Positions 2 to 27,475 of a stretch of DNA of 32,555 bases are shown here, in pieces; within the stretch, counting starts at the first letter, position 1; the number at the start of each line of letters is the position of its first letter. The position numbers and the translations under genes are program-made. The stretch lies in assembly GCA_902794895.1 (NCBI GenBank), contig CADBIY010000017.1, positions 16,323-48,877 on the forward strand, in the 5' to 3' direction. Origin of the DNA: Candidatus Avelusimicrobium vaccinum. GTDB taxonomy: Bacteria; Elusimicrobiota; Elusimicrobia; Elusimicrobiales; Elusimicrobiaceae. Under the pieces are notes generated by a model. The model searched no databases. It was not told the origin of the DNA and saw only the letters and a program-made list of their open reading frames with translations.

Positions 2-1162
2 AAACAACACATTGCTTTCATGACCAGTTGCCGAAGTGATTTTGCCAAATTACGGCCTTATATTAACTTTTTTGTCAAAAGAAAGATTTATGTGTCAATT
101 TTCGTAACCAGTATGCATGTAAATAAGGTACTTGGTTGCACGCGTAAACACTTAGAAACCTATTTTCCCAAATATGTACATTTTTGTTGGGATGACTCTT
201 TCCCGCAACATGAACCTGTGGTCGGCATGACTCATTTACTGAAGGCTATCAATGATTTTTTTATTCGAAAACATATTACTTTTTTATTTGTTCATGGGGA
301 CCGGATGGAAGCGCTGGCAGCGACCATTGCCGCCACGCTAAGGCAAATTCCTGTTTGTCATATTGAAGCCGGGGATGAAAGTGGAAATATAGACGAATCT
401 TTTCGTCATGCAATCACAAAATTGGCAAACCGCTTTTTGGTAGATAATGATATTGCTAAACGGCGTGTAATACAAATGGGGGAAGATCCCTGTTCCGTAT
501 TTACCGTTGGATTCAGTGTGCTTTGTTTATTGCCAACGGAGAAAGAACAAAAGAGATTGCTTGAAAATTTACAAATTAATTCACCCTACATCGTCGTTCT
601 TTATCACCCGGAAACCGGTCTCACGCCCAAACAACAATATCAACGTTGTAAAGAAATGGTTTCTACACTGGGGAAGTTGCCCTTTCAGTATATTGTTTTA
701 CCGCCTAATAATGACCCGGGTTATACGGAAATTTTGCGTGCGTACCAGTCTTTTCCGCAGAAAAAAGTTAAATTTATTAAATCCCTTCCTTGTGAAGATT
801 ATTTATCACTGCTTTCTTCTTCGATTGGGTTAGTGGGCAACAGTTCCAGCGGTGTCAAAGAGGCTCCGTTGCTTCAGGTTCCTTCGATTACATTCGGATC
901 CCGTCAAAACAACCGGGTAAATGGTTGTAACTTTACCACCTGTTATTTTGTTCAATCCGCAAAAGAATTACAAGCCTGTATACAAAACAATTTTTTAAAA
1001 TCGGTAAAATACAAACAACATCTTCTTACCACACAAAAATTTGAGCAGCAGTTAGAACGTATTTTCACCCCTGCTTTTTTTACACCTAATCTGCAAAAAT
1101 GCTTTTATAATTCCTTGTGTAAACGACGGAGTAAAGCCCGTTCGCATCGCTCGAAATCCTGA
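2..1162 (+). CDS. neuC: UDP-N-acetylglucosamine 2-epimerase (hydrolysing), NeuC family, 5'-truncated by window edge
   Basis: This enzyme would convert a UDP-HexNAc to the 2-epimer plus UDP, the first committed step of sialic/nonulosonic acid synthesis in the cytoplasm. The frame is open to the left edge: residues before the first ATG (position 20) read KQHIAF and continue into MTSCRSDFAKL, the normal NeuC N-terminal strand, so the true start lies a few codons outside. 386 residues are visible. Family marks seen are VHGDR (about residue 98-101), HIEAG (about 120), a SFRHAITK segment (about 133-140) and GNSSSG followed by KEAP (about 279-288), the UDP-binding C-terminal half. Its 3' end overlaps the 3' end of neuA on the opposite strand by 58 bases. 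Because LegG and similar enzymes are close homologues, the product could be a legionaminic-type sugar; the GT80 enzymes next door favour sialic acid. Confidence 0.85.
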   Translation, partial: KQHIAFMTSCRSDFAKLRPYINFFVKRKIYVSIFVTSMHVNKVLGCTRKHLETYFPKYVHFCWDDSFPQHEPVVGMTHLLKAINDFFIRKHITFLFVHGDRMEALAATIAATLRQIPVCHIEAGDESGNIDESFRHAITKLANRFLVDNDIAKRRVIQMGEDPCSVFTVGFSVLCLLPTEKEQKRLLENLQINSPYIVVLYHPETGLTPKQQYQRCKEMVSTLGKLPFQYIVLPPNNDPGYTEILRAYQSFPQKKVKFIKSLPCEDYLSLLSSSIGLVGNSSSGVKEAPLLQVPSITFGSRQNNRVNGCNFTTCYFVQSAKELQACIQNNFLKSVKYKQHLLTTQKFEQQLERIFTPAFFTPNLQKCFYNSLCKRRSKARSHRSKS

Positions 1163-1818
1163 AAAGTATCAATATCCAGTGTATGGCTTTTTGGTAACAC
1201 AATCCCTAAGGAAGGGGTATTAAGTTTTGCATTCGGTTTCAAAAAAGACCGTTTAAAAACATAAACTGTACCATTCACTCGATATAATTTCGGAGCATCC
1301 TGCCGTCGCAATTCCGCGTAATTTGGAGCTAAAGGCGTTGTTTTTAATACTTCTTCTGGTTTAGAACCTATCAGTAATAGTCCGGGCCGCAGATCGACAG
1401 GGCTTACACTGGCAACACTTTTTGCCTTGTTTTTAATAGCCAAGTTAACTGCTTTTGTGATATCGGTTGAGGTTCGCAAGGGTGAGGTCGGCTGTAATAA
1501 AACAATATAATCAAACGGTTGATGGGGATTTTCAACCCTTTGCAGCACATGCAGTAATACATCCAACATGGGAGTAGTATCTTTCGACAAATTAATAGGT
1601 CGATGTAAAACACGAATATTTGTGAGCCGTGCACATTCCTTCACCAACGAATCATCTGTTGAACAAATAATTTCATCAAAGAATGTACATTCTTTTACGG
1701 CTGAAAATGTCCATTCGACTAAGGGACGGCCGGCAATTTTACAATGATTTTTACCCGGCACCCCTTTTGAACCGGCTCGTGCGGGGATAATTGCAATAAT
1801 ACGTTTATTTTGAAACAT
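1105..1818 (-). CDS. neuA: CMP-N-acylneuraminate cytidylyltransferase (NeuA family)
   Basis: It activates sialic acid (or a related nonulosonate) with CTP to CMP-sugar, the donor for the two sialyltransferases encoded just upstream. The 237-residue protein has the nucleotide-binding motif IPARAGSKGVPGKN (residues 11-24), QPTSPLR (109-115), YRVNG (179-183) and LDIDTFQDF (214-222), all typical of the NeuA/KdsB-like fold. I chose ATG 1818 rather than an upstream in-frame start because GAGG lies 7 bases before it and because residue 1 then sits just before the first beta strand. It is the last gene of a four-gene operon and its start overlaps the end of the preceding GT80 gene by 14 bases. The 3' end overlaps the convergent neuC. 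Assignment to the family is firm; the exact sugar is not shown. Confidence 0.88.
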   Translation of the reverse strand: MFQNKRIIAIIPARAGSKGVPGKNHCKIAGRPLVEWTFSAVKECTFFDEIICSTDDSLVKECARLTNIRVLHRPINLSKDTTPMLDVLLHVLQRVENPHQPFDYIVLLQPTSPLRTSTDITKAVNLAIKNKAKSVASVSPVDLRPGLLLIGSKPEEVLKTTPLAPNYAELRRQDAPKLYRVNGTVYVFKRSFLKPNAKLNTPSLGIVLPKSHTLDIDTFQDFERCERALLRRLHKEL

Positions 1819-3014
1819 TTTTTTCCTCAAGTGAAATAATTTTATCATCGGTTAAAATTCCGGCTTGCTTGAGTAGCGGAATGTATACATCATGGGGTCT
1901 TTGAATATAGAATAAAATCCGTTCCGGAGGTAAAGCAAAAAATAAGGAGGAACTGTATCCAAATACTTTATCGGGCATATATCCCGTTAAAAATAGTATC
2001 TCTAAGGGTATTTGTTTCGGTAACGCATGCATAAAAGGCCATTTTTTATGTAGCGTATCCTTTAAATATGTGTTTTTAGTCAACCAAGGATGTTCTTTAA
2101 AAAACCAAGTGTATTGTTCTGGTTTTTCCAAAGGTACAATATTCCCGGAAAGCAAGCGGTCCATAATACGGATTTGGGCTTTATTAAACTTTTTATCATC
2201 TGCAAAAAAACCGAGCGTATAGAGCATTACCGGTTTTCCGTCATGAAATGGAAGCAAATCTTGTTCATTGATTCCGGCCAAGCGTAATAAATCTTTTTTT
2301 TGTTGTTCTGTTAAACTTTGTGAAATTTTTAAATAATTGACATCTTCAACTGATTGGGCTTGTGTAAATAATTTTTTTATTTCCGGATAGTGAGCAAATA
2401 CAAAATCTTTCATCCCGATATGTATCGTAGACGGATAAAAAGGAATAAGAGAAAGCGCATAGTTAATACCGAAATGGGGGGGAGGATTTTTTCGGTTTAA
2501 AATCGATAACGCATACTCTTTAGGCAGTTGAATATACCCAATTTGAAAAGAGGTTGCTCCAAAACTTTCTTCATACCAATGAATGTGTTCTATTTTTTCC
2601 CGGGGGATTGTAGTTAAAAACAACCAGACTAAAGCATTTTGGTCTTTATTTAAATGCAAGGTTAATTTAGCATTAGGATATTGGGCAAGAAATCGTACAA
2701 TTTCTTTGCGAAGACGTTTTAAGTTTTTTTTCATTTTTAAGGAGGATGCCCCTTTTACAAGCCAAGTATGTTTGGGCAAGGAATCCTGATACGTAAAATG
2801 GGTCATGCGGCCCCAAAAAACTAATTTTGGGATGGAGGGATCACTTTTTACGAAGTCAACCATCTGTAAAAAGGTAGGGAATGAGGAAGTATCCGCGTAC
2901 ATAACGGCATGCTTCACTTCCGGATACACAGGAGATTTTTTATAAAAATATAGCACATAACCGGTACAAATAGCACATAAAAAAAAATACAATCAATACA
3001 CCAAGTTTTTTCAT
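1805..3014 (-). CDS. GT80-family sialyltransferase, frame broken at a T9 tract (probably phase-variable, OFF)
   Basis: The family transfers sialic acid from CMP-sialic acid to a galactoside (Pasteurella PM0188/PmST1 type). Seen: YADTSSFPTFLQMVDF at the N-terminus, YPNAKLTLHLN, WYEES, KEHPW, IPLEILFLTGYMPDKVFGYSSS, each aligning with PmST1 segments. The best start is ATG 3014: AGGAG lies 9 bases upstream and the ATG forms an ATGA overlap with the stop of the preceding paralogue. From that ATG the reading frame enters nine T (2979-2987) one base out of phase; removing one T gives a continuous 402-residue protein starting MKKLGVLIVF with an N-terminal hydrophobic anchor like its paralogue. As sequenced, only a TTG at 2992 without a good ribosome site opens the catalytic frame (395 residues). 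Also odd: the position of the catalytic Asp of the family is Glu (residue 149 of the restored protein). Confidence 0.8.
2979..2987 (-). repeat. Homopolymer T9 (A9 on + strand) inside the 5' end of the GT80 gene
   Basis: Nine identical bases lie 28-36 bases into the coding strand after ATG 3014. Eight T would join the start codon, ribosome site and hydrophobic anchor to the catalytic domain; nine puts them in different frames. Tracts of this length are known sites of slipped-strand mispairing and of RNA polymerase slippage, and also of sequencing error. Confidence 0.85.
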
Positions 3015-4252
3015 GATTCGTTTTCTCCTGCATAGATTTGTTCTGCCCGTAAATTACCAAATTTAAGTAACCAGGGAACGTAGGGATCTTCCGGCCGCGG
3101 AATATAGAATAATACCCGTGTACTGGGAAGAGCAAAGAATACAGAAGAACTATATCCAAAAACTTTCTCGGGGATATATCCTGTTAAAAATAAAATTTCT
3201 AAGGGAAAGTCTTTCGGTAAAAAATGCACGAATGGGTACTTTTTTAAAATAGATTTTTTAAGGGATTGATCGTTTGTATGCCACGGATGTTCTTTGAGTA
3301 AAAGGAAATAATCCTTGCCCAATTCGCCCCATTGTCCAAATTTATCGTTAATCACCTCTTCAATTATTTGAAATTGCATTTTATTAAATTCTTCAGAAGA
3401 TTTTAAAGAATGCCCTAGTGTTCCCAGTAAAACAGGTTTATTTTGAAAAAATGGTTGCAAATCGGTTGGATTAAGTCTGGCGAATTTAAGTAACATTTCC
3501 CGTTGAGAATCTGTTAAATTTTCTTGAATTTGCTTATAATCAATTGGTTCAATTTTTACATTTTCAGGAAATAGTGCACGGAAAGAAGATTTGTTTTTTA
3601 TGAGTTTCTCTGGATGTGCGATATGCAAAACAGATGAATAAACAGGGAGTAACGATAGAGAAAAACTCACTTTATTTGATGTCGGAACTAGCAAATCAAG
3701 CAACAGTTGCGAATCCTTTTCTATCGGGATTACAAAACGAGTATCCGGAGTATGGATAAAACAGGAAAAACAATCTTCATACCAGTGCACAGTTATCTTC
3801 CTCTGTTCCCTATCAAAAAGTTGTAAGACTCCAAGCACAAAATCATTATGCAGGAGATTTAAATGTATTTTTAATGAGGCATTCGGATAGTTTGAGATAA
3901 ATTTTTTTATTTGCTTTTGTAATTGATTAAAATAGTCTACTCTTTCAGTAGCCGTTAACTCCGAATAGGACTGATATGTCGTTTTCCCGGTTGTGATATG
4001 ATATTGTTTTCGTAAAAATCGTGATAGTTTCGGTTGCCGTTCCCAAAAAATAAATTTAGGTTCCTCCGGGTTGCTTTTTACCACTTCAACCATTTGGAGC
4101 ATGCTTGGGAAAGAAGCAGGATCCACGTAAATACTGGCCTGTTTGACCTCCGGTTGAACCGTAGAAGTTGTCCGGGATATTAACGCATAAACCGCTATCA
4201 ACAAGAGAAATACAAAGAATAAATATAGACTATATTTTTTAGATTTTACCAT
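3011..4252 (-). CDS. GT80-family sialyltransferase with N-terminal membrane anchor
   Basis: A 413-residue paralogue of the gene that follows it. GT80 features: IYVDPASFPSMLQM (41-54), NYPNASLKIHLN (121-132), WYEDC (157-161) where Asp160 aligns with the catalytic base Asp141 of Pasteurella PmST1, KEHPW (320-324, His322), PLE (350-352, the conserved Glu of the CMP site) and FGYSSS (365-370). Residues 8-25 form one hydrophobic segment after a Lys-rich N-terminus, a signal anchor. ATG 4252 is preferred over 4285 because AGGA lies about 7 bases upstream. It overlaps the MFS gene by 14 bases and the next GT80 gene by an ATGA. It most likely caps a surface glycan with sialic acid; acceptor and linkage cannot be read from the sequence. 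Confidence 0.85.
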   Translation of the reverse strand: MVKSKKYSLYLFFVFLLLIAVYALISRTTSTVQPEVKQASIYVDPASFPSMLQMVEVVKSNPEEPKFIFWERQPKLSRFLRKQYHITTGKTTYQSYSELTATERVDYFNQLQKQIKKFISNYPNASLKIHLNLLHNDFVLGVLQLFDREQRKITVHWYEDCFSCFIHTPDTRFVIPIEKDSQLLLDLLVPTSNKVSFSLSLLPVYSSVLHIAHPEKLIKNKSSFRALFPENVKIEPIDYKQIQENLTDSQREMLLKFARLNPTDLQPFFQNKPVLLGTLGHSLKSSEEFNKMQFQIIEEVINDKFGQWGELGKDYFLLLKEHPWHTNDQSLKKSILKKYPFVHFLPKDFPLEILFLTGYIPEKVFGYSSSVFFALPSTRVLFYIPRPEDPYVPWLLKFGNLRAEQIYAGENES

Positions 4253-5507
4253 GGGACATCCTTTTTTCAAACGATATGCAGGCAATTACGGCTATTATTT
4301 GTATACAAACACATAATAAAAAGAAAAATTGCCATTGCCGATATAAATTAACTGCGTTCCCCATTTGATTTAATAAGGCCCATACAATTCCCGCCATGGC
4401 CGGTCCCAAGGCAGCAATTAATTTAGCACAAGAAACTGCCGCAAAAAAAACAGACGAGGATCGTTTCGGAGCTTCTAAGAGAACTGCCCCGTCTAATCCG
4501 GCTTGGATACCGGCCTGTGTAATAAAACTCAAAACAAAGAAAACTCCGCTACATGTCATAACTTGTTTTGGTGTCATCAAGGGGAGGGAAAAAATCAGTC
4601 CGCTTAATAAAATACAGAGTATTGTAAAGGATACTTGGCAAGAACACAGAGAATAAGTTTTCTCATTCATTTTTTTCCACCAAGGGAGAGAAAGCAAAAA
4701 TAAGAATTGTCCAAGCACGGCTAATCCGGTCATCCAAGTTACCGACCACTTACCGATTTGTAATACAAACACAGGCACGAACGTGTTCATAAACAACAAC
4801 GACCCTAAAATCACAATACACACTGTCAAAAACCACTTATAATGCCATACAGTTATTCGTATATATTTAAATGCCGGGATGGGTACCTGACAGGGTTTAG
4901 CACTACCGGGAATATGCCCCAAACAGGCTGTCCCAATAAGTCCACATATACAAGCACAACAGAAGAGAATCGCATAAATCGCACAAGGTACGTTTCCATT
5001 TAAATCACTCCAGTATTTCATGAAAACAAAGGCACTCAAAAAACCGCCAATATGTGCGCCCATAGAAGCCGTATATTTACGTTGAACAAATAAATAAGTT
5101 TGTTTTGCAGGTAATACGGATTTTAACCAAGGATAATAGGATCCCGAAGAAATTCCGCCCGTAAAATAGCATAAAGCAATCACCCATGCTAATCCAATAG
5201 CTGCCCACGAAGCGGAGGGAAAGAAAGCCAATAATGCCCCGAATAAATAAAAAGGTCGGCTCGCATAAGAGAAAATAAGCGTAATTTTTTTTGCATCCAT
5301 TCCTTTGTAAACAAAATAAGCCCCCAGCATACTGGCAGCCGTCCCCATATAAGGAAGAGCCCCTAAACATCCAATCAACCAGGAAGAAGCCCCCAATGCG
5401 AGGGCATAAGCCGTCAGTAATGTTCCGGTGGCTAAGGTATCCATAGCACTTACCCAAGCACTATTGTAAATAAAATAACGTAAAAAAGAAGGCTCTAATC
5501 GCTGCAT
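4239..5507 (-). CDS. MFS transporter, first gene of the sialylation operon
   Basis: A 422-residue protein with about 12 hydrophobic segments, the size and layout of a major facilitator. The first segments (ATGTLLTAYALALGASSWLIG, then a loop with YKGMDAKK after helix 2) and the second half (from about residue 215) fit two six-helix bundles. No subfamily signature is clear to me, so the substrate is unknown; by position it could move a sialic-acid-related sugar or glycan precursor, but that is inference from the operon only. Start ATG 5507 has no ribosome site; an extended -10 lies 6 bases before it, suggesting a leaderless message. Downstream it overlaps the GT80 gene by 14 bases. Confidence 0.75.
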   Translation of the reverse strand: MQRLEPSFLRYFIYNSAWVSAMDTLATGTLLTAYALALGASSWLIGCLGALPYMGTAASMLGAYFVYKGMDAKKITLIFSYASRPFYLFGALLAFFPSASWAAIGLAWVIALCYFTGGISSGSYYPWLKSVLPAKQTYLFVQRKYTASMGAHIGGFLSAFVFMKYWSDLNGNVPCAIYAILFCCACICGLIGTACLGHIPGSAKPCQVPIPAFKYIRITVWHYKWFLTVCIVILGSLLFMNTFVPVFVLQIGKWSVTWMTGLAVLGQFLFLLSLPWWKKMNEKTYSLCSCQVSFTILCILLSGLIFSLPLMTPKQVMTCSGVFFVLSFITQAGIQAGLDGAVLLEAPKRSSSVFFAAVSCAKLIAALGPAMAGIVWALLNQMGNAVNLYRQWQFFFLLCVCIQIIAVIACISFEKRMSHGKI

Positions 5508-14941: not shown

Positions 14942-16078
14942 TTACCAGTCCGCATCTTTACCAAGAGAGGATGTGGGCAATTTGTTTCCAAAAGTAAACG
15001 AACGCGGTATTTCATGAACCGTTACTTGGTGTTCGTTCAAAAAACTTCTTAATTCTTCCACAGAGGGGGGGATTACATCCGGTTTGGGAACCAGGAAGGC
15101 TTTTAAACGGTCTCCTTCTTCGGGGCGCATTAAGCGCACACGGCATTGTTCAATTGCCGGATGTGTCATTAAGATTTTTTCTATGTGTTTTGGATAAACG
15201 TTAATTCCGGCTATCTGAACACACGCATCACGACGTTCCAATGGGAAAATAAAACGCTCCTCCTCTACTTGCACTTTATCGGGTAACGATTGCCATTCCG
15301 CACCATTTTTCCGTTTAATAAAAGGCATTCCTTCACGCATTTTAACTTCCCAAAACGGTAAAATTTCAAAAGGCCGATACGGTAAATTTCGCCAGGCCAT
15401 TGCTCCCGTTTCGCTGGAACCGTAAATTTCGGTAAAGTGTGTGGCTCCTGCTTTTAGAAGGGATTCTATAATTTCATTTTTACAAGGAGCCGTAGAAGAT
15501 AATAAATGCATTTCAGGGAGAAATGTTTCATTGCAACGCAACCAATAACTCCAAAATAAAGGAAATCCTACTAATAAATCTCCCGGTTGGAGTAATTTAT
15601 CCCACGATTGTGTCGGTAATGCAGGTAAATTAATCACCGGAACCTGTAAAATATGAGGCAATGCCACCGTAAATGTAAATCCGTATAAATGGTTAGCAGG
15701 AACAAACGAAACAATTCGCCGTACTTCCTTAAATAAAAAAGCCACCCCGCGCGCTTCTTCCCAAATCATTTCCTGGGTATGTATGCAAATTTTTGGAGTT
15801 CCTGTACTCCCCGAAGTTAAAAAAGCAACCTGTTTGGTTTTTAAGTAAGATGCATACGCATAATCCGTCATCAACTCTAACGAAGAAAATGCTAACGGAG
15901 TATAGCCAAACATGGTGCCGGCTTTAAGTATCGCCGAATGTAAAATATCTGCCGGAATATTGCTCCATAAATTTTCAGCCGGACTATCAAACACGGCCAA
16001 TGCATCTTTTTGATGCCGGGCCATTTCCGTACGGAAAAGATCAGTAATCATCCGTTTAATATCATTACGGTTTAACAT
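14942..16078 (-). CDS. AMP-ligase (acyl/aryl-CoA synthetase-like), ApeH-like
   Basis: A 378-residue member of the ANL adenylating family, short as in aryl-polyene loci. It would adenylate an aryl carboxylic acid and load it on an acyl carrier protein to prime polyene synthesis. Seen: the P-loop FLTSGSTGTPK (86-96), YGSSETG (219-225), ERRDACVQIAGINVYPKHIE (281-300, the hinge Asp284 region) and a C-terminal LPTSSLGK with Lys374 at the place of the catalytic A10 lysine. ATG 16078 is used because GGAGG lies 9 bases upstream; it overlaps the preceding gene by 14 bases. Last gene of the minus-strand operon. The substrate (a hydroxybenzoate- or coumarate-like acid) is inferred from the pathway. Confidence 0.8.
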   Translation of the reverse strand: MLNRNDIKRMITDLFRTEMARHQKDALAVFDSPAENLWSNIPADILHSAILKAGTMFGYTPLAFSSLELMTDYAYASYLKTKQVAFLTSGSTGTPKICIHTQEMIWEEARGVAFLFKEVRRIVSFVPANHLYGFTFTVALPHILQVPVINLPALPTQSWDKLLQPGDLLVGFPLFWSYWLRCNETFLPEMHLLSSTAPCKNEIIESLLKAGATHFTEIYGSSETGAMAWRNLPYRPFEILPFWEVKMREGMPFIKRKNGAEWQSLPDKVQVEEERFIFPLERRDACVQIAGINVYPKHIEKILMTHPAIEQCRVRLMRPEEGDRLKAFLVPKPDVIPPSVEELRSFLNEHQVTVHEIPRSFTFGNKLPTSSLGKDADW

Positions 16079-16838
16079 AAGGGGTGGCCTCCAAGTTAAA
16101 TTGGGTATCACAAAAAATATCCTGTAAACTAAACGTTTCGTTTGTTTTTAATAAATCAACCAATTGTTGTGCAAAACAGATCGGACGGGGAGTTGTATTC
16201 ATCTTTTTTTCCCGTCGCATACATACAGATTTAATTTGATACGGCCTTGCTCCTTGGGGATGACGTCCAAGCACCAATGCGGCAGAAAAACGCTCAAAAG
16301 GGCCTTGCACATTACGTAATAACGGACGAAATAAATCCATATGTTTAGGAGCATAATCTGCCGCCACTGGATTTACCTCATCCGCAACAGCCACTACTAT
16401 TTGCTCGCAACACCCCTTTTGTAAAAAAGAAACGGCCGTCATTATCGCCGCTGGGAAAGAAGATTCGAATTGCCCAATAGTCACACAGGGCCCTTGAATA
16501 TTTAAATGCATGGACAAAGCAAGCCCGGTTGAATTATGGACTGATCCGGCAAATGCCGTTGGAGAAGATAATTCATCTCCATCCTCAAAAATACTATCCA
16601 TAAATTTACAAGTATTTTCCAATGATCCTGCCCCGGCTGCAATACATAACCCCATATTTTTAGGTTCTTGTACAGACAGGCCGGCCTGTTCCAACGCCTG
16701 AAATGAACAGAATAATGTATTTTTGACGATTTTTTCCATGCGGCGTAAACGGCGCAGTTCTATATAGGGGCTAAACCATTCGGCAGGAACGTCCCCTGTA
16801 AAAGAAGAAAAACCGTTGATATATAGATTAGTGTCCAT
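16065..16838 (-). CDS. Ketosynthase-like partner without the active-site Cys, ApeC/chain-length-factor-like
   Basis: 257 residues covering only the N-terminal half of a beta-ketoacyl synthase (Ketoacyl-synt_2 type). The segment NIQGPCVTIGQFESSFPAAI (113-132) aligns with the nucleophile elbow of ketosynthases, but Glu125 stands where the catalytic Cys should be, and no second-half His motifs exist. In aryl-polyene systems such proteins (ApeC) pair with the ketosynthase ApeO and act as chain-length factor. The gene overlaps the ketosynthase gene in front of it by 11 bases, which supports stoichiometric pairing. ATG 16838 has GGAG 10 bases upstream. Confidence 0.75.
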   Translation of the reverse strand: MDTNLYINGFSSFTGDVPAEWFSPYIELRRLRRMEKIVKNTLFCSFQALEQAGLSVQEPKNMGLCIAAGAGSLENTCKFMDSIFEDGDELSSPTAFAGSVHNSTGLALSMHLNIQGPCVTIGQFESSFPAAIMTAVSFLQKGCCEQIVVAVADEVNPVAADYAPKHMDLFRPLLRNVQGPFERFSAALVLGRHPQGARPYQIKSVCMRREKKMNTTPRPICFAQQLVDLLKTNETFSLQDIFCDTQFNLEATPYVKP

Positions 16839-18030
16839 AATCTTGCGCTCCGATAATAAGGGCCGCATTGCACCCACCAAAAGCCAGCGAGGTAGATATT
16901 GCTGCGCGTTTATGAATCTTCAGTTTATTTTGGGTAGGAGAAAAACCAATTTGTTCATCCATTTCCGCAAATCCCCAAGTAGGCGGCACTACTTGATGAT
17001 TTAAGGCTTCCAGCGTTAATACCGCTTCCACCGCACCGGCAGCCCCCAGGGTGTGCCCGGTAACGCCTTTAGATCCCCAAACGGGGAGGGCCGGAAGTAT
17101 TTCCTTAAAAGCGCATGCTTCAGCAGCATCATTGGCCGGACTAGCAGTTCCGTGTGCATTACAAAAAGCAAGATCGGTTGCCGAAAGGTTTCCTTCCTGT
17201 AATGCAAAAGAAATTGCTTGTTTGAGGCCTTTGGCTTGCGGATCGGGTGCAGTAGGGTGATAAGCATCACATGAATTACCGTAGCCTAATACGTATCCTT
17301 TCGGCGTTAAATTCAGTTCTTTAGCCAATGCTTGGCTAGTTAACAACATAGCGGCAGCACCTTCTCCGATATTGATTCCGTTACGATTTTTATCAAAAGG
17401 CTTACACTTTTCTTTAGAAGCAATTAACAAACGAATAAATCCATCATAAGGGATCAAATTCATCTCATCCGTTCCGCCGCATAAAACAGCATCACACCAT
17501 CCTTGCCGGATCCAACTATCAGCCAACCCAATAGCATCTGTTCCACTGGCACAGGCCGTTACAATGGTTTGAAAAGGGCCGCTAAACCCGAAATAGCGGC
17601 TCACTGCCTGAGCCGTTGCGGAAGCAAAATAATGGGATAATTCGACAATATCCTGGGGTGATGTATTATGATTGCGCCAGTTTTTATATACATTTAAACA
17701 GTGAAAAGAGGCATCTACAGAGGTGCCTACAATAACTCCAACCTTTTTGTCTGTTAATTGGGCAGGTTCAAGACCGGCTTGCGCAAAGGATTCTTTAGCA
17801 GCCGTAAGAAAAAAATGCAAACTTAAACTTTGATCTTTTGGACAGGATAATACTACTGCCGGATCGACCAAAAAAACCGGGTAACCAGAAGTATATGCAC
17901 TTTCCACTCGATGCTTAGGCAACAAAAAACGGGCACATCCATTCAGTGCGCCCTCATAGCAGGTTACGGAAGTGTTGCCGCTGGCACATATACACCCATG
18001 TCCGGCAATCCAACTGGCGGGCTGTTTCAT
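16828..18030 (-). CDS. Beta-ketoacyl-ACP synthase, ApeO-like
   Basis: A 400-residue FabF-type condensing enzyme with the full catalytic set: Cys160 in VTACASG, His293 in NAHGTASPAND and His326 in GVTGHTLGAAG. It would elongate the ACP-bound chain by decarboxylative condensation with malonyl-ACP. It starts directly at the stop of the acyl carrier protein gene (TAA then ATG, no gap) and overlaps the Cys-less partner by 11 bases, so ACP, ketosynthase and partner form one cassette. ApeO versus ApeR assignment rests on this adjacency, not on residue evidence. Confidence 0.88.
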   Translation of the reverse strand: MKQPASWIAGHGCICASGNTSVTCYEGALNGCARFLLPKHRVESAYTSGYPVFLVDPAVVLSCPKDQSLSLHFFLTAAKESFAQAGLEPAQLTDKKVGVIVGTSVDASFHCLNVYKNWRNHNTSPQDIVELSHYFASATAQAVSRYFGFSGPFQTIVTACASGTDAIGLADSWIRQGWCDAVLCGGTDEMNLIPYDGFIRLLIASKEKCKPFDKNRNGINIGEGAAAMLLTSQALAKELNLTPKGYVLGYGNSCDAYHPTAPDPQAKGLKQAISFALQEGNLSATDLAFCNAHGTASPANDAAEACAFKEILPALPVWGSKGVTGHTLGAAGAVEAVLTLEALNHQVVPPTWGFAEMDEQIGFSPTQNKLKIHKRAAISTSLAFGGCNAALIIGAQDYGH

Positions 18031-18291
18031 TTATTTTTTGCGGTTTTTAATAATATAATCGGCCAAAGTTCCTAAATTTTTAAAAATTTCCCGGCCTTGC
18101 TGCATATTTTCAATGGTAATACCATATTTTTTTTGCAACAGCATGATCAATTCTACCGCATCCAGACTATCTAAACCAAGACCCTGGTCCCCAAAAATAG
18201 CATCTTCCGGTCCGAATTTAGACAAATCAGCACCCCCTAAATCAATACCGGAAGAGATCATCTCTTTAATTTCTTCGACAGTTTGTTGCAT
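18031..18291 (-). CDS. Acyl carrier protein, ApeE/ApeF-like (first of two)
   Basis: An 86-residue acyl carrier protein. GLGLDSLDAVEL (38-49) holds Ser42, the phosphopantetheine attachment site. ATG 18291 is chosen over 18312 because GGAG lies 8 bases upstream and it gives the normal length. The gene overlaps the acyltransferase gene by 26 bases and its stop touches the ketosynthase start. It is rich in acidic residues as expected. Confidence 0.9.
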   Translation of the reverse strand: MQQTVEEIKEMISSGIDLGGADLSKFGPEDAIFGDQGLGLDSLDAVELIMLLQKKYGITIENMQQGREIFKNLGTLADYIIKNRKK

Positions 18292-19189
18292 TTTCTTCGC
18301 TCCATAAGTCAAAATAGTTAAAAAACTGATACGGATATTGTATACAAAAATCGGCTAATTCGTCCATGAATTGTTGGGCATAAGGAAGATATTTTTCTTT
18401 CTGATTGCCGCCATCCGGGATACGTAATACCGCAGCCGTTTTAGAAGCAAACATGCCACGCTTCAACCAAGGGAAAAACAGAATAACAATCGGTGCTCCG
18501 GTGATAGCCGCGATTCGGTAAAAACTGTACGGAACAGACACTTTCCCTTTAAAAAAATGTACGGAAAGTGCGTTCTTTTCAGGCCCAAACATACGATCAC
18601 CCATCGCACAGAGGACTTCCCCGCGTTGTAACGCATTCATCATTTCCACCGTTCCGCCTAACGGTCCGGCCGGGTTAATAAAATCAAAGGGGGCTTGTTG
18701 TCCGGTATGCTGGGAGACGGTTTTATCATAATCTTTTGGATTGCGGTAATACAAAACATGCTTTTTGCCGGGTAAAAATTGCATTAAATTTACCGCCATT
18801 TGCCAACACCCCACATGGGCGGAAAGTAAAATAAGTCCTTTTTGTTCAGACAGTAGTTTGCGGCATAATTCGCGTTCTTCTTCCGTAGAAGTAACCGCCG
18901 TTGCCCCCAAAATCCCAAGTGCCGCACGATCCACGAGCGTGCGTGCAAAAGTTAAATTAAGCAGATAAGTGTGTTTAAAAAAATCAGTAAAACAGCGGGG
19001 GGAAAAACGGCGTATTACATAGGATTGGGACTTTTTGCGTACCGAAGGGAAACAAGTATATACAAAAACGAGCGGATACAAAAATACATAAGCCAACCCA
19101 CGGCCGCCTATAAAAATAAGGCCGTAGATAAACGCATGTTTCCATTTACCGGCCAAACTGCGACCGGTTTCTTCTTTATGATTGCGCAT
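18266..19189 (-). CDS. LpxL/HtrB-like lipid acyltransferase, equivalent to the acyltransferase half of ApeJ
   Basis: 307 residues, LPLAT superfamily of the lipid A late acyltransferase type, probably inner-membrane associated (hydrophobic stretch about 20-46). It may transfer the polyene acyl chain to a lipid or sugar acceptor. The HX4E/D motif region reads SAHVGCWQ (123-130): His125 is present but Gln130 stands where Glu or Asp is usual. FINPAGPLGG and GDRMFGPE follow later. In enterobacterial aryl-polyene loci this domain is fused behind a GT2 domain; here it is a separate gene overlapping the GT2 gene by 14 bases. Other members of this branch may share the Gln, so inactivity cannot be assumed. 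Confidence 0.75.
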   Translation of the reverse strand: MRNHKEETGRSLAGKWKHAFIYGLIFIGGRGLAYVFLYPLVFVYTCFPSVRKKSQSYVIRRFSPRCFTDFFKHTYLLNLTFARTLVDRAALGILGATAVTSTEEERELCRKLLSEQKGLILLSAHVGCWQMAVNLMQFLPGKKHVLYYRNPKDYDKTVSQHTGQQAPFDFINPAGPLGGTVEMMNALQRGEVLCAMGDRMFGPEKNALSVHFFKGKVSVPYSFYRIAAITGAPIVILFFPWLKRGMFASKTAAVLRIPDGGNQKEKYLPYAQQFMDELADFCIQYPYQFFNYFDLWSEENATNCRRN

Positions 19190-20321
19190 GCAACCCCCGG
19201 GTGATTATTTTACCGATTAGCCACACGAAACAAAATGTTAGCGCCGCTAAGCAGGGAGCAAGCACAAAGGAACCTAATATCCACTCCCATACACGGCTTA
19301 AGAACTGACGTCCTAAAGTAGTTAAATTAAATTCCGTTAAAAAATAGCCATGACGTATAAAAAAACCCGTTTCTATACATAATGCCGGGATAATAGGACC
19401 TATGCAAAGTTTCTCAAAAGAAATGACTAATAACCGATTTAAATCAAACCACCCTGCACCTATAAAAAGCATGACTTGGCGAATCCCGGGCAGCGCAATA
19501 CTTCCACAGAAAATACCCCATGCGGCAGAACATGCATTTTTAGAAGCACTATTTGGTTTTTTAAGATTTTCAATCATCACTTCCCAATAGCCGCGTTTTT
19601 CTATTTTTCTTCCCTTGCCTGCATATTGACGGTGCGGAACGGGTAACATTGAACGGATCGTGAGATAAGTATTCAGGACCGTTAAACGTAAATTATCTTT
19701 TAAAACGCTAAAATGGGAAATTCTATTTTTGGGATACACAACTGAAATTTCTTTTTCCCGCACCTCAAATCCGGCCCATAAGGCTTTCACGACAACTTCC
19801 ACTTCAAACGCATACCGTTTGCACCACAAGGGTAAGGCGAGTAATATATTGACCGGATAGACACGGTACCCGCTTTGAATATCTTGTATGGCTTTACCCG
19901 TTTGCAGATGCACCCAAAAACTACCAAAAGCACGCCCAAAACGGGAAGATAACGGAACGGTTTCTTTATTAAATTTACGTTTCCCAATAATAATTGCCTG
20001 TGAGCAGGAACGCGATAATCGCTCCAGTGCGGGATAATCCTGATGCCGGTGTTGTCCGTCTGCATCTATCGTGACTAAATGCGTAAAACCGTGCGCTTTG
20101 GCCCAACGGGCGGCATCTAACAAAACAGCCCCTTTTCCTCTATTCTTTTTAAACCGAACCAATGTCACGGGCAGACCGGAAAGTTGAATTTCCGGGGATA
20201 CCGCACTTCCATCGTCAAATACGGCTACCTGTGGATTTTTTTTCAAACAACCCTCTGCTACGCGGCGTAAAGTACCGTTATGATTATAGTGGGGAATGAT
20301 AATTACAAATTTCATACTCAT
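19176..20321 (-). CDS. GT2 glycosyltransferase with C-terminal DUF2062-like membrane domain
   Basis: 381 residues. The N-terminal GT2 domain has VIIIPHYNHNGTLRRV (6-21), FDDGS (35-39), KNRGKGAVLLDAARWA (59-74) and TIDADGQH (84-91), with the DXD motif in DAD; the acceptor loop QSGYRVYP follows. From about residue 265 to the end there are three to four hydrophobic segments resembling DUF2062 (WGIFCGSIALPGIRQVMLFIG and after). It would glycosylate a lipid or polyene carrier at the inner membrane, the ApeJ N-terminal role. ATG 20321 forms an ATGA overlap with the thioesterase stop; ATG 20315 is an alternative two codons in. Confidence 0.8.
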   Translation of the reverse strand: MSMKFVIIIPHYNHNGTLRRVAEGCLKKNPQVAVFDDGSAVSPEIQLSGLPVTLVRFKKNRGKGAVLLDAARWAKAHGFTHLVTIDADGQHRHQDYPALERLSRSCSQAIIIGKRKFNKETVPLSSRFGRAFGSFWVHLQTGKAIQDIQSGYRVYPVNILLALPLWCKRYAFEVEVVVKALWAGFEVREKEISVVYPKNRISHFSVLKDNLRLTVLNTYLTIRSMLPVPHRQYAGKGRKIEKRGYWEVMIENLKKPNSASKNACSAAWGIFCGSIALPGIRQVMLFIGAGWFDLNRLLVISFEKLCIGPIIPALCIETGFFIRHGYFLTEFNLTTLGRQFLSRVWEWILGSFVLAPCLAALTFCFVWLIGKIITRGLHAQS

Positions 20322-20785
20322 TTTTTTAAAGTTCCGGCCCGCCAACTGGCTAAAAACTGTTGCGTAAATTTAGGCCATTCAAACAGTAAATTATTATTTT
20401 TATCCACCATCAATTGAACACTATACCCGCGTGCCATCACGTTTTGATTGGAATCCAGTATCGTAAAATCATAATTCAGACGGGCCGCTTCGCTATAAAA
20501 AAGCCGTGCGCGAATTTCATAGGTAGAAGGATAGGTAAGAGAGGCTAAATAATCAACATGGAATTTACGAACCGGAATTACAATATTATGGTCATAAAAA
20601 TCTTGATATCCAATGCCCCATTCGTTTCCCAGCGCAACCCGGGCATCTTCTATAAAACTGGCATAGTGCCCGTGCCACATAATCCCCATGGGATCTATTT
20701 CATTAAAACGAACCGTGCGAAAAACAGATTTTTCAAGCGGAGCCGGTTCACCCGGCAAAACGGTAAAATATTCTATCTTTTTCAT
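20318..20785 (-). CDS. Acyl-CoA/ACP thioesterase of the 4HBT hotdog family, ApeK-like
   Basis: 155 residues. The hotdog signature VRFNEIDPMGIMWHGHYASFIEDARV (25-50) carries Asp31 at the position of the catalytic Asp of 4-hydroxybenzoyl-CoA thioesterases, and HGHY in place of the common HxNY. It could release or proof-read ACP-bound polyene chains; the aryl-polyene systems contain such a protein (ApeK). ATGA overlaps at both ends tie it to the dehydratase-like gene before it and the glycosyltransferase gene after it. Confidence 0.82.
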   Translation of the reverse strand: MKKIEYFTVLPGEPAPLEKSVFRTVRFNEIDPMGIMWHGHYASFIEDARVALGNEWGIGYQDFYDHNIVIPVRKFHVDYLASLTYPSTYEIRARLFYSEAARLNYDFTILDSNQNVMARGYSVQLMVDKNNNLLFEWPKFTQQFLASWRAGTLKK

Positions 20786-21135
20786 ACTCTATCTCTTACG
20801 GTAAAAATAAGTTGACTCACTTTTATTTGACTATCGGCAAGCCGTAATTCTGCTAAAATTTTTCTGTCCGGCCGCGAAATAAGCACGACCTCAATGGATT
20901 GCCCGGGCCGAATAGGAGCCATAAATTTACAACGGGAAACAGTATCAATCTCCACCGAACGTTTTAACTGTCGGCTTACAGCATCCGCGCAAAGCCCCAG
21001 TTGGCATACCCCGGGTAATAACGGATTGTCCGGAAAATGACCTTTAAAGACCGGCAAAGCGGAATCAATACGGTAAGTATAGCAATTGTCCTGTGCCTGT
21101 TCAAAACAGGCCGCTAACGATTGTTCTAATAACAT
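20782..21135 (-). CDS. FabZ/FabA-like hotdog protein, ApeI-like
   Basis: 117 residues with the dehydratase signature FKGHFPDNPLLPGVCQLGL (30-48). His33 matches the catalytic His of FabZ. In FabZ the Glu acting with it lies 14 residues later; here that position is Gly47 and no acid replaces it, so catalysis may differ or depend on a partner. It would dehydrate 3-hydroxyacyl-ACP during polyene building. Start ATG 21135 overlaps the lipoprotein stop by 10 bases and the stop overlaps the thioesterase start (ATGA). Confidence 0.75.
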   Translation of the reverse strand: MLLEQSLAACFEQAQDNCYTYRIDSALPVFKGHFPDNPLLPGVCQLGLCADAVSRQLKRSVEIDTVSRCKFMAPIRPGQSIEVVLISRPDRKILAELRLADSQIKVSQLIFTVRDRV

Positions 21136-21545
21136 GCGGATTCTCCTTTTAACTGTGCCCGAAATATAGCATGGGTAGGAGCGTCTTTATATTGAACAGT
21201 TGACGGGGGGCACTTGGAAAAGAAATTTTCCCGTGCAAACCGAACAAACGCTTCTAAAGCAACCGTTGGAAATTGTTCTTGTTTATGGTATACTTCCGCG
21301 TGATGAGGCCAAACTTTCAAATCCGCTAATTTCACGCCAAAAACAGATAAAATAACCATACGGACCGAATCCGCCTCCCGATAGCAAACGGCCGTAAAAT
21401 CTAAATTCCAATTTTCAACACTTCCTGCCCATAACATTGTTTTATCTTGCGGAATTACTCCTTGCGGAGGTTGCCGATAAACTAAAGAGGTTCCCTGGCA
21501 TGCTGTTAAAAAAAGAAGGCACAAAAAGATTTTAAAAGGATGCAT
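21126..21545 (-). CDS. Lipoprotein, DUF3261-like (ApeN-like)
   Basis: 139 residues. ATG 21545 gives signal MHPFKIFLCLLFLTAC with lipobox LTAC and lipidated Cys16; a longer upstream frame is in the exporter gene and lacks a signal. GGAG lies 8 bases before the start, and the start overlaps the exporter stop by one base (TAATG). The mature part (WNLDFTAVCYREADSVRMVILSVFGVKLADL) fits the small envelope lipoprotein found next to the MMPL exporter in aryl-polyene loci, likely an outer-membrane acceptor or adaptor for the exported product. The family name is from context and general likeness. Confidence 0.7.
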   Translation of the reverse strand: MHPFKIFLCLLFLTACQGTSLVYRQPPQGVIPQDKTMLWAGSVENWNLDFTAVCYREADSVRMVILSVFGVKLADLKVWPHHAEVYHKQEQFPTVALEAFVRFARENFFSKCPPSTVQYKDAPTHAIFRAQLKGESACY

Positions 21546-23815
21546 TACTTTTTCTCCAATATAGCAGGTAAAAGATATTGGGCGGACAACATGGCAGATC
21601 CAATGCCTAAAAATGAGGAAATCCCCATCATAAACAAAACACTGTGGCGGGCAAAAATAAGTACGCCAAATCCAGCCAGTGTCGATAAAGCCGCCACCCA
21701 TAAAGCAGCAGGCGCATATGCCGTACGTATTGAAGGGGCCAATTCATGGCGGGTAAGTTGGAAAATCGCATAATCAATACCAAGCCCCATAAGCAGCGGC
21801 AGGAAAATTAATACAAAAAGATTGATCTTTAATTGAAAAATCCAAAAACACGCAAACGTAAATCCCGCCGCAAACAATACGGGAATAAATGCCAGCAATG
21901 CTTTCCTTATACTTCTAAAAATAATAGTTACAGCCGCGAAGTTTAACAAAAATGCCAGTTCCACCACCCACAAAGACTCCTGTTGAATTTGCTTCAGCAG
22001 ATCTTGTTGCAGTTGACTCCCAGCGATAAGTATTGCTCCGAACCGGGTGGCTTGCTGTAATAAGCGGGGGGAATAAGGCACCATATGAGTTACGGCCCAA
22101 TCTCCGTTAGGCAATGAAATAAAAGGGTCATAAATGGAAGAAAAATCGGCGGTGTCTTTCTGGGTTAAGTCCGTTAAAAAGTCTATAAAGGGTTTAAAAG
22201 CCGCAGGCACCATGCCTAATTTTTTGGCTGAAATTTCTAGATCGTTTTGAAGTTTCAAAACGCGGTCTTGGTTCCAAAAATTCCGCCATTGCGCCACTTG
22301 TTTTTCGGCGGTATTTTTAGAAGGAAAAAGCGCATTTACCGCCAAGGGAATACCGGCCTGTTGTTCAAACCGTTCGCTTTGTTCCAAGGCTTCCTCGCGG
22401 GTGCGGCCCTTCACAAATAGCAGTGCCTGTTCCTGGTCACGGCCTTGCAAGGTATTTTGCAATATGTTGTATTGTTGTTTAAAAATGCCCGAAGTTGCGT
22501 TTAAAGAATTTAAATCACTTTCAAAATGAATTTGAAATAATCCAATCACTCCCAAACAAATTACCCCGAAACAAAGACTCCAAGCAAACGGTTTTGAAAT
22601 TTTAGGGGGCAAAGATTTTGAAATGCTATTTTCCGCAATAGGCAGATTTTTCCAATAAACAGGTAAAATGTATAAGGCAATCAGCAAGGATATTAAAAGA
22701 CCTGTAAGGGCAAACACGGCAATTTGGCGAAACACTTCTACCGAAGAAATAAATAAAGATACAAAACAGAGCGCGGATGTTGTAAAAGTACAAAATAAAT
22801 GACGCTTAAGTGGTGGAGTAATGAGTTGCCGTTCTTGTCCGCTGCGTAAAGCAAAAAACACATACACCGCATAATCAACCGATAATCCGGCCACTACACT
22901 TCCAAATCCAAGTGTAATGCCGGAAATTCCATCGAAAATCCAATAAGTTACCCATGCTGCTATGGGAGTAACTGCTAGTGGTAATAAATAAATAAGCAAG
23001 GCTTGTTTCATTCGCAAAAAGGAAATAAAAATGAGGATCAGACTTAGCATTGCCAAAGTTCCTACGATCCATAAATCCCGCTGAATAATTTGTACATTTT
23101 CTGCCGTATACCTTAGCCCGCCTAAAAAGAAAGCCTTAACATCTGCAGGAAGATCCTTGGAAAATTGTTGAAAAAATTGTGTCATTTGACGGGCCGCTGC
23201 AAAATCAGGTATTGCGTTTAATTCATAAATCCCCAGATGCACCCGTCCGGTAGCATCCGTTAAAAATCCGTTTTGATAACGTACCGAAGTTTGAGGATTT
23301 AACAAAGCAAATTTTTGCCCCATTAAATCAATCAAGTGCAGCGGATCGGCCAGCAAAAGCGGTTTTAATACCCAACCTTCTAAAGAAATTAATTTTTTAT
23401 AATTTTCTGCCATCAACCGGTCCACAGCCTCTGCAGACAATTTTGTAAGAGTTTGCTGTTCATCTTTTGCAGTCCACCGGAAAGGAAGTGCCCCCAGCCA
23501 AGCCTGCATTCGATCTAACGAAGGTTGAAAGCCGGGCTTAATTAAATGTTGGTCCAATAAAGATTGTTGTAACCCACGGGCATAGTCCAGTGAGGAATTT
23601 TCATCTGGCCCTTGAACAATAACAAATACTTTTCGGTTGAGTGGGGATTTTTGGAATAAATATATCTGTTCCCGGAGTGCAAATGGAACTAATCCGTTTA
23701 TATTTTCTTGCGGTTTAATATGTAACAATTTCCAGCTGCTTGCGACCATCGCAAAAATTAATAAACCGGTAAAAAGAATATTTAAAATTCGTCGATTATT
23801 CCCTGCTAATTTCAT
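21545..23815 (-). CDS. RND-superfamily (MMPL) exporter, ApeM-like
   Basis: 756 residues with the duplicated RND layout: an N-terminal helix (about 10-30), a periplasmic domain, six helices with GLSVDY (310-315), then the same again with a helix near 408-428, a second periplasmic domain and helices with GLGIDY (677-682). The GxxxDY motifs carry the proton-relay Asp. It would move the polyene lipid across or out of the inner membrane toward the periplasm, with the LolA-like and lipoprotein partners encoded on either side. ATG 23815 forms an ATGA with the LolA-like gene, and the stop forms TAATG with the lipoprotein gene. Confidence 0.88.
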   Translation of the reverse strand: MKLAGNNRRILNILFTGLLIFAMVASSWKLLHIKPQENINGLVPFALREQIYLFQKSPLNRKVFVIVQGPDENSSLDYARGLQQSLLDQHLIKPGFQPSLDRMQAWLGALPFRWTAKDEQQTLTKLSAEAVDRLMAENYKKLISLEGWVLKPLLLADPLHLIDLMGQKFALLNPQTSVRYQNGFLTDATGRVHLGIYELNAIPDFAAARQMTQFFQQFSKDLPADVKAFFLGGLRYTAENVQIIQRDLWIVGTLAMLSLILIFISFLRMKQALLIYLLPLAVTPIAAWVTYWIFDGISGITLGFGSVVAGLSVDYAVYVFFALRSGQERQLITPPLKRHLFCTFTTSALCFVSLFISSVEVFRQIAVFALTGLLISLLIALYILPVYWKNLPIAENSISKSLPPKISKPFAWSLCFGVICLGVIGLFQIHFESDLNSLNATSGIFKQQYNILQNTLQGRDQEQALLFVKGRTREEALEQSERFEQQAGIPLAVNALFPSKNTAEKQVAQWRNFWNQDRVLKLQNDLEISAKKLGMVPAAFKPFIDFLTDLTQKDTADFSSIYDPFISLPNGDWAVTHMVPYSPRLLQQATRFGAILIAGSQLQQDLLKQIQQESLWVVELAFLLNFAAVTIIFRSIRKALLAFIPVLFAAGFTFACFWIFQLKINLFVLIFLPLLMGLGIDYAIFQLTRHELAPSIRTAYAPAALWVAALSTLAGFGVLIFARHSVLFMMGISSFLGIGSAMLSAQYLLPAILEKK

Positions 23816-24414
23816 TGAAAAAGTTCCTTTTTCAGCGGTTGGTTAATTTGCGGATTTAAAAATCGGAGTAACGTATAATCTCCTCCAGGTTCATCCAAAC
23901 GTATCTTTTCCAATGCTTGTGGATTTTCGGTCGAAAACCAAGCGGTGATTTTTTGGAGTACCGTTATTTTTCCTTTCGGATATAGCATAACCCCTCTCTC
24001 AAAATATTCCACTTCATAGTTTTTTGATAATTCAGTCAAATCAAAAGATAACCACATCATCATCTGGGCCGCAATATGGGAAGACATGGCATTCTTCACA
24101 GGTTTTTTAATTCCTTCTTCCAAACGAAATGTTTTTCCTTCGCTCATTAAAAAACCATTTTGAAACGGTTCCGTATATTCCCAACGGATTTTGGCAGGAT
24201 CTTTGGAAAAAGCAAAATATCCCGCACTGGTTACCGGCTGTTCCAATAAACTCATATGTTTTTCTTGGGTAAACGAAGCGGAAAGCGTTTGAACAGACGC
24301 GAAACGTTGTTGAATTTCTTGTGCTAGGCTATTTTCTTCCGCCGGTTGAAGATCTTGCGCCATAACGCCGACCGAAAATAATAAAAAACAAACCGTAAAA
24401 ATTATTTTTTTCAT
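23812..24414 (-). CDS. LolA-like periplasmic carrier, ApeL-like
   Basis: 200 residues. ATG 24414 starts a signal peptide (MKKIIFTVCFLLFSVGVMAQ) and forms ATGA with the preceding stop; the longer frame to 24489 has no such feature. The mature domain shows the LolA pattern: FASVQTLSASFTQEKHM, AGYFAFSKDPAKIRWEYTEPF, NGFLMSEGKTFRLEE and later the LRFLNPQIN strand, a half-barrel that binds a lipid tail. It probably ferries the polyene lipid through the periplasm from the MMPL exporter. It is a dedicated paralogue rather than the housekeeping LolA because of the operon. Confidence 0.85.
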   Translation of the reverse strand: MKKIIFTVCFLLFSVGVMAQDLQPAEENSLAQEIQQRFASVQTLSASFTQEKHMSLLEQPVTSAGYFAFSKDPAKIRWEYTEPFQNGFLMSEGKTFRLEEGIKKPVKNAMSSHIAAQMMMWLSFDLTELSKNYEVEYFERGVMLYPKGKITVLQKITAWFSTENPQALEKIRLDEPGGDYTLLRFLNPQINQPLKKELFQ

Positions 24415-24851
24415 AAAGATGTTGGAGGCTCCTTTCCTTCCCACATAAAAATATATACCGTTGCTTCTGCTAATTTGTTTTCTTGGCAAAACACGGTGCC
24501 TTTAACAATTCGAGTACCTAAAAAATCATCTTGTTGAACGACCTGTGTAATTAATTCATCGCCGCAACGTGCCGGTGAAAAAAACTGAAAATTACGTATA
24601 TTGACCAAATATCCGCCACCTTCCGTAGATAATCCCGCTAATTCCCGTCGTTTCGATTCGCATGCCGCAAAACTTTGTGCGATAATTTCACAAAACGCTT
24701 CCGGAGCCACGGTTCCGTCTTGACGCAAAAATAAGAAATCTGGCCCAATGCACGTTTTCACGCGCGAAGCAGCCGCATCCACGGAAAGAATTTCATCAAC
24801 TAGCCGCATAGGAGGTTGGTGCGGAATAAGAGTATCAATTTTATAAGGCAT
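24411..24851 (-). CDS. 3-hydroxyacyl-ACP dehydratase, ApeP-like hotdog
   Basis: 146 residues of the COG4706-type hotdog family. LIPHQPPMRLVDEI (8-21) with the conserved His-Gln, and a helix EAFCEIIAQSFAA (51-63) with Glu51 or Glu55 as the likely catalytic acid, are visible. It would dehydrate 3-hydroxyacyl-ACP to the trans enoyl form, the step that builds the conjugated polyene since no enoyl reductase is present. Start ATG 24851 overlaps the preceding lipoprotein gene by 11 bases. Confidence 0.82.
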   Translation of the reverse strand: MPYKIDTLIPHQPPMRLVDEILSVDAAASRVKTCIGPDFLFLRQDGTVAPEAFCEIIAQSFAACESKRRELAGLSTEGGGYLVNIRNFQFFSPARCGDELITQVVQQDDFLGTRIVKGTVFCQENKLAEATVYIFMWEGKEPPTSL

Positions 24852-25233
24852 TGTTGATCATATTTCCGTTAACAGCACGGCGGATTTCTAAATCCAAATT
24901 TTGAACCCATTGGTTATATTTGCGGTGAATGGTGTTTTTCTTAGCATTGTAGGACATATTTAAACTCCCCGCATAGTGAATGGCATAGGTGTTGGCGGTA
25001 TACGGAATACGCACACGTACTTCATGACCGCGTAACATTAACTGTCCTTCTACTTCCCCGGGGGTCACTTCGTACATTGCCCATCCTTTTTTGGCGCCCC
25101 CTTGAAAAATTGCCTGTTTCATCGTGGTATTAACAGGAGTAACCGTACGAGTGGGTACATCCTTTACTTGAGGTAAACCGCTACATGCTGCCGCAAAAAA
25201 TACTGCTAAAATTAGGTGTAAGTTTTTCTTCAT
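24841..25233 (-). CDS. Small lipoprotein of unknown function in the aryl-polyene-type operon
   Basis: 130 residues. Signal MKKNLHLILAVFFAAAC with lipidated Cys17. The mature part contains HYAGSLNMSYNAKKNTIHRKY and QWVQNLDLEIRRAV, a pattern I associate with a widespread small lipoprotein family of unknown function. ATGA overlap with the acyltransferase stop and an 11-base overlap with the dehydratase start place it firmly in the operon, so a role in handling the product at the envelope is plausible. It is not among the core Ape proteins I know. Confidence 0.65.
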   Translation of the reverse strand: MKKNLHLILAVFFAAACSGLPQVKDVPTRTVTPVNTTMKQAIFQGGAKKGWAMYEVTPGEVEGQLMLRGHEVRVRIPYTANTYAIHYAGSLNMSYNAKKNTIHRKYNQWVQNLDLEIRRAVNGNMINNAL

Positions 25234-25958: not shown

Positions 25959-26224
25959 TATTTTCCGGCTTCGTGCTCGCGGGCCAATTTTTCAATAAAA
26001 TCGTACAAGTCGTTTAAGGTTACAATCGAACGGATATCGTATCCTTGGCGTAACGTCATACCGAATTTTTGTTCTAACACAACCACCATATCAACGGCAT
26101 CCAAACTGTCTAAACCGACATCTTGTTGCAAGTGGGCCGTGGGAACCAACTGGTCGTCAGTTAATTCAAATTCTTTTTTCAGTGCTTCATTAGTTAAACG
26201 GATAATTTCTTCTCTTGTAATCAC
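25958..26224 (-). CDS. Acyl carrier protein (second of two), GTG start
   Basis: 88 residues with VGLDSLDAVDMV (36-47), Ser40 being the phosphopantetheine site. The start codon is GTG at 26224, forming GTGA with the ketosynthase stop, with AGGAG 7 bases upstream. It differs clearly from the other ACP of the operon in sequence, so the two probably serve different steps (for instance starter loading and elongation). Confidence 0.9.
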   Translation of the reverse strand: MITREEIIRLTNEALKKEFELTDDQLVPTAHLQQDVGLDSLDAVDMVVVLEQKFGMTLRQGYDIRSIVTLNDLYDFIEKLAREHEAGK

Positions 26225-27441: not shown

Positions 27442-27447
27442 ACATTC

Positions 27448-27453
27448 ATTATA
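27448..27453 (-). promoter_or_regulatory. Internal -10 element before the ketosynthase gene
   Basis: Perfect TATAAT, 6 bases before ATG 27441, in the only intergenic gap of the operon. No convincing -35 or TGn extension is present, so activity is uncertain. Confidence 0.35.
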
Positions 27454-27475
27454 CAATTTTAATCGTGCGGTTTAC

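Follow-up and report, generated by a model that had tools for sequence, protein, structure and literature searches.

Organization of the sialic acid locus

The window analyzed here is the whole 32,555-nt stretch, C17:16323-48877, of a Candidatus Avelusimicrobium vaccinum genome. The genome is 1.45 Mb in 30 contigs, of which 1,428,782 bases were read by stretches. On the minus strand of the window, a gene for an MFS-like membrane protein, two GT80-like genes (designated ST1 and ST2) and neuA followed one another in a tightly packed series. The first of these (4239..5507), at the head of the apparent MFS-ST1-ST2-neuA operon, was recognized as MFS transporter-like by sequence reading only, and its product gave no Pfam match at E 0.01. 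ST1 (3011..4252, minus strand) was an intact paralogue of ST2, which encoded 413 residues from ATG 4252 and matched PF11477. The GT80-like frame of ST2 (1805..2992, minus strand) followed.

The neuA-like gene (1105..1818, minus strand) was identified as a CMP-sugar synthetase gene by family match. Its ATG lies inside the 3' end of ST2, with a 14-nt overlap, and neuA is therefore probably translationally coupled to ST2. The only other strong match to the neuA family in the genome was found on contig C5, and this is probably KdsB.

On the plus strand, neuC (UDP-GlcNAc 2-epimerase; 20..1162) converged on the operon and matched TIGR03568 with 255 bits, above the cut-off. The neuB gene was located directly upstream of neuC, beyond an 18-N scaffold gap. 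The sialic acid pathway context was supported, with neuA, neuC and neuB all adjoining ST1 and ST2.

Elsewhere in the window, at 14942-27456, the ORF list contained ketosynthase, acyl carrier protein, acyltransferase, thioesterase-like and exporter-like ORFs, which together resembled an aryl polyene cluster.

A T9 tract places ST2 out of frame

The run of nine A at 2979-2987 on the plus strand reads as T9 in the minus-strand sense of ST2. The expected start of ST2, ATG 3014, overlapped the ST1 stop codon (TGA at 3013-3011) as ATGA. It was preceded by AGGAG at 3029-3025, the pairing of which with the 16S tail was -7.4 kcal/mol. This value exceeded those of the first ATGs of 73% of the long genes, and was reached at 5% of random positions. 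The good ribosome-binding site and the stop-start overlap that the original prediction had placed at this ATG were therefore both present.

Translation from ATG 3014 through the T9 allele gave MKKLGVLIVFFFMCYLYRLCAIFL and then a stop at 2942-2940, a short ORF of 24 residues (2940..3014, minus strand). On the other hand, the T8 version gave MKKLGVLIVFFLCAICTGYVLYFYKKSPVYPEVKHAVMYAD..., which entered the GT80 frame and continued to the stop at 1805, a product of 402 aa. A one-unit change in the tract thus toggled the frame of ST2, as had been predicted from the nine T and from the 402-residue protein expected with eight. The GT80 frame itself contained 395 open codons and was not the frame read from ATG 3014.

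ST2 is a GT80-like protein with an unusual active site

In a Pfam profile search, ST1 and ST2 both exceeded the curated PF11477 cut-off of 25, with matches of 42.7 bits (ST2) and 52.1 bits. The structure of ST2 was predicted with a pLDDT of 69. In a structure search, the top 20 PDB matches were all GT80 enzymes (E 2e-13 to 3e-11, TM about 0.6-0.68), and no non-GT80 match was found below 0.001.

The HP and SS motifs were also retained. YSSS and KEHP were conserved among the ST2 homologues; KEHPW and SSS were invariant in the alignment, where they matched KGHP and GVASS. The fold and these two motifs are common to ST2 and the GT80 enzymes of Pasteurella and Photobacterium (PM0188, 2ex0, 4v2u, 2z4t). 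The identity to these enzymes, on the other hand, was only about 20%, and their YDDG, which contains the catalytic Asp, was replaced by YEES, YEDC or a close variant in all eight Elusimicrobium copies. In these aligned copies, the position of the D-D/E-G motif remained acidic, but was occupied by Glu and lacked the Gly.

The assignment of ST2 to GT80 was therefore upheld by the profile match, the fold and the HP and SS motifs. With neuA, neuB and neuC adjacent, the best reading of ST2 was a putative sialyltransferase with an unusual active site.

The T9 tract is unlikely to be an assembly error

If the true sequence were T8, the break would be a consensus or assembly error and ST2 would be expressed normally. 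The reliability of the assembly at homopolymers was examined throughout the genome. The 1,428,782 bases contained 240 A/T runs of 8 nt but only 11 of 9 nt, and a length of 10 did not occur. Only one T9 (that of ST2) and five A9 were on coding strands, against 22 T9 and 63 A9 in synonymous-codon shuffles. Runs of at least nine are thus avoided in genes of this genome. All five genes that contained A9 were intact.

A scan for a good-site ATG followed by a run and a long out-of-frame ORF gave six candidates, compared with 0-2 at random positions. Four of the five other than ST2 proved false when inspected, and the fifth was a pilin promoter tract (C11:31767; see below). ST2 was the only genuine break of its kind in the 1.43 Mb read.

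The genome was also compared with the ORFs of a congener (G031, 0.7 Mb), which gave 461 conserved genes. Uninterrupted alignments spanned 396 A/T runs of 7-9 and 115 G/C runs of 6-8. Four candidate frame breaks were found among the conserved genes, and none of them was at a run of at least seven. One was a true break, in which about 7 nt were deleted and no homopolymer was involved, at C7:about 4445 in a gene named from sequence reading as that of pyruvate phosphate dikinase (PPDK). It may be an assembly error or real. This showed that isolated indels occur in the assembly, and a suspicious short deletion in at least one core gene gives the error explanation some weight.

The three N gaps were 6, 18 and 34 bases long. 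Such variable lengths suggest that the assembly was made from paired short reads, in which a T9 is seldom miscalled. Longer tracts, of 11-17 T, were assembled in this genome. A general homopolymer error of the assembly was therefore not supported, and an error at the T9 of ST2 in particular is unlikely, since the five A9 genes were intact and no conserved gene was broken at a run of at least seven. We considered it improbable that the true sequence is T8.

Routes around the frame break

We rejected programmed -1 ribosomal frameshifting at the T run: the GT80 frame lies at +1 with respect to ATG 3014, and a -1 shift would go the wrong way. The earliest codon that could serve as a start in the GT80 frame is a TTG (2990..2992, minus strand). 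Its ribosome site was weak, at -5.4 kcal/mol, a value reached at 19% of random positions, and in the orthologues the start codon corresponds to ATG 3014. The TTG was therefore an unlikely normal start.

An in-frame ATG (2900..2902, minus strand) was found at the first strand of the GT80 domain, 37 nt past the stop of the short ORF. It had a strong site (-8.8 kcal/mol), and restart there would yield a product of 365 residues. Of the aligned homologues, the closest orthologue alone shared the Met that ST2 has at this position.

Slippage in transcription may provide another route. RNA polymerase of Escherichia coli drops one U at T8, and this one-base deletion rescued about 10% of the expression of a reporter (PMC6260861). 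This is the direction needed for the T9 of ST2. The original prediction that the gene was "switched off" was therefore too strong, as polymerase slips in the restoring direction at such tracts and in-frame starts lie downstream. We infer that the T9 state is better described as "down and altered", because three routes could still yield enzyme.

The same evidence could mean that there is no switch, and that the T9 gene is constitutively useful through transcriptional slippage or restart at ATG 2902 or TTG 2992. The polymerase efficiency and the strong, well-placed ATG at the domain boundary agree with this. However, an ordinary ATG, in frame, is present in the nearest relatives, ATG 2902 is conserved no further than the closest orthologue, and this genome avoids long runs within genes. 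A constitutive arrangement of this kind was judged to have only a small chance of being correct.

Orthologues lack the tract

Homologues of ST2 occurred in 5 of the 66 genomes of the genus, and the other four genomes held six further copies. All six were open and started with ATG. The closest orthologue (in G038) was 75% identical to ST2 in an end-to-end alignment, and had a normal ATG at the corresponding position. Between these two genes dN was 0.19, with dS saturated near 2, which at the sequence level shows strong constraint on ST2. No GT80 was found outside the genus in a 295-genome sample of the phylum, and viral contigs gave no match.

The T9 tract was absent from all four of these genomes (G038, G039, G045 and G046). 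The closest orthologue had a T6, located elsewhere, and the other five homologues had no T run of six or more near the start. It is therefore a recent feature at the level of the species; contingency tracts restricted to one species are possible. A T-rich anchor as such is ordinary, because T7-8 runs are generally enriched early in genes (22% of T7 runs in the first 30 codons vs 9% expected).

The 395 codons of ST2 contained no further stops or frameshifts. An old, decayed pseudogene was thereby rejected; nor were there the added inactivating mutations that, according to the original prediction, would have spoken against a switch. A recent loss is a different matter. A single base inserted by chance, at a run prone to mutation, could have disabled a dispensable gene and been kept by drift without any selected switching, while ST1 covers the needed activity. 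This would be consistent with the orthologues without the tract and with the ordinary anchor, and also with the rarity of the gene, which makes it dispensable at the level of the genus. On the other hand, such a loss would have left the remaining codons without decay, and the same break is found in no other gene of the genome. We regarded plain recent loss as rather unlikely, but as deserving more weight than the error or the constitutive explanation.

Poly-T tracts in pilin promoters

The long A/T runs (11-17) of this genome were nearly all situated between TTGAC(T/A) and a TATACT/TACACT-like box, and the majority lay 39-47 nt upstream of type IV pilin-like genes (GFTLIELLVVVLI). T10-17 was found upstream of 13 of the 42 pilin-like N-termini, and several more had T7-9 at the same place. 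The pilin promoter tracts ranged overall from T7 to T17; examples, outside the window, are at C2:57979, C2:84943, C9:25014 and C16:22445.

The promoter pattern was found in 51 of the 66 genomes of the genus, with a maximum of 119 per genome; the reversed control gave one hit in total. Among the sampled genomes of the phylum, multiple copies of the pattern occurred only in two genera of Elusimicrobiaceae. Among 30 sampled sites, 23 directly preceded a pilin gene, with lengths of T10-13 and a mode of T12. The tight mode suggests a favoured spacer. These tracts are candidates for a phase-variable or length-tuned promoter repertoire, and as a candidate contingency system they are stronger than the T9 of ST2.

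Near-identical promoter copies with different tract lengths were present at C15:36708 (T9), C16:34728 (T14), C27:11835 (T12) and C28:10596 (T12). Downstream of the C16 and C28 copies we observed a short hairpin and a terminator-like sequence, and no ORF was found there. The four copies may belong to small RNAs, or to leaders in repeats at the ends of contigs.

A second pilin-like set (C2:65718, C3:73409, C8:30337, C9:28671, C16:5160 and C28:7870) shared an upstream leader with (G)GCCGTTTTT in an apparent hairpin. In the regions searched, these leader hairpins matched no Rfam family at the gathering threshold.

Discussion

Our leading interpretation, held tentatively and at somewhat less than an even chance, is that the one ST2 allele seen, which is out of frame, is genuine and prone to slippage, and that in principle it is leaky and can revert. 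In this model, ST2 would be a membrane-anchored GT80-like enzyme, with a presumed N-terminal anchor encoded by a natural T run. Replication slippage would have added one T in the sequenced lineage, and ribosomes starting at ATG 3014 would stop after 24 codons. Full-length ST2 would drop to a low level, supplied by RNA polymerase slippage and perhaps by internal starts. RNA polymerase may drop one U at the tract and restore the frame in some transcripts; restart at ATG 2902 may give a soluble enzyme without the anchor; and weak initiation may occur at TTG 2992. Loss or gain of one T would restore or break the frame, and the tract may thus act as a leaky, heritable and reversible switch.

The switch may in addition limit the supply of CMP-sialic acid, because the start of neuA lies within the end of ST2 and its translation follows that of ST2. 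If ribosomes no longer read through ST2, polarity could lower neuA expression and thereby affect ST1 as well.

Selected phase variation of ST2 is possible. In favour of the leading interpretation we counted the unique coding T9, the only genuine configuration of its kind in a genome that avoids such runs, together with the intact and strongly constrained remainder of ST2, its GT80 fold and conserved motifs, the reliability of the assembly at runs, and the precedents in V. cholerae manA and with E. coli RNA polymerase. Against it we counted the lack of the tract in orthologues, the isolated indels in the assembly (PPDK) and the presence of both mutS and mutL in the genome, with which a lower rate of slippage is expected than in many of the classical phase-variable species. 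For a contingency tract, moreover, nine T is short. The original wording, "likely phase-variable", therefore went beyond the evidence, considering the tract that is not conserved, MutS and MutL, and the single genome for the species.

Repeat-driven phase-variable sialylation is known in Campylobacter, Haemophilus and Neisseria, where the enzymes belong to GT42 and GT52 and the repeats are longer G tracts or tetranucleotides. The likeness lies in the repeat-driven on/off transfer of sialic acid to a surface glycan; ST2 differs in being GT80-like and in its T9.

The poly-A loci manA and wbeL of Vibrio cholerae O1 are closer in the tract. As in ST2, an A/T tract of 8-9 is located early in a surface-polysaccharide gene, and a one-base change leads to a short peptide (PMC3441752). 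The A9 tracts of manA switch, with reversion shown (PMC3441752), and thus provide a precedent for a tract of this length. In V. cholerae, however, both alleles were isolated, reversion was observed and the tract is conserved across strains, whereas ST2 is represented by one genome and one allele, and its tract is not in the orthologues.

In Citrobacter rodentium, tssM is reported to be interrupted at an A/T run and still to give full-length product through polymerase slippage (PMC4256274). Such rescue of a frameshift in transcription is, for ST2, only a candidate route.

For Elusimicrobium, the titles and abstracts in the literature searched held nothing relevant on a sialyltransferase or phase variation.

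Phase variation is known mainly from pathogens and, to our knowledge, almost nothing is known of surface variation in Elusimicrobiota. It is conceivable, though doubtful, that this lineage runs a homopolymer contingency programme, in which poly-T tracts in pilin promoters would act beside the coding T9, and the latter would switch sialyl transfer and also, by way of the neuA overlap, the supply of CMP-sialic acid. An on/off sialyltransferase in an uncultured commensal of the gut would, if real, place host-glycan mimicry in Elusimicrobiota under the type of control known mainly from pathogens.
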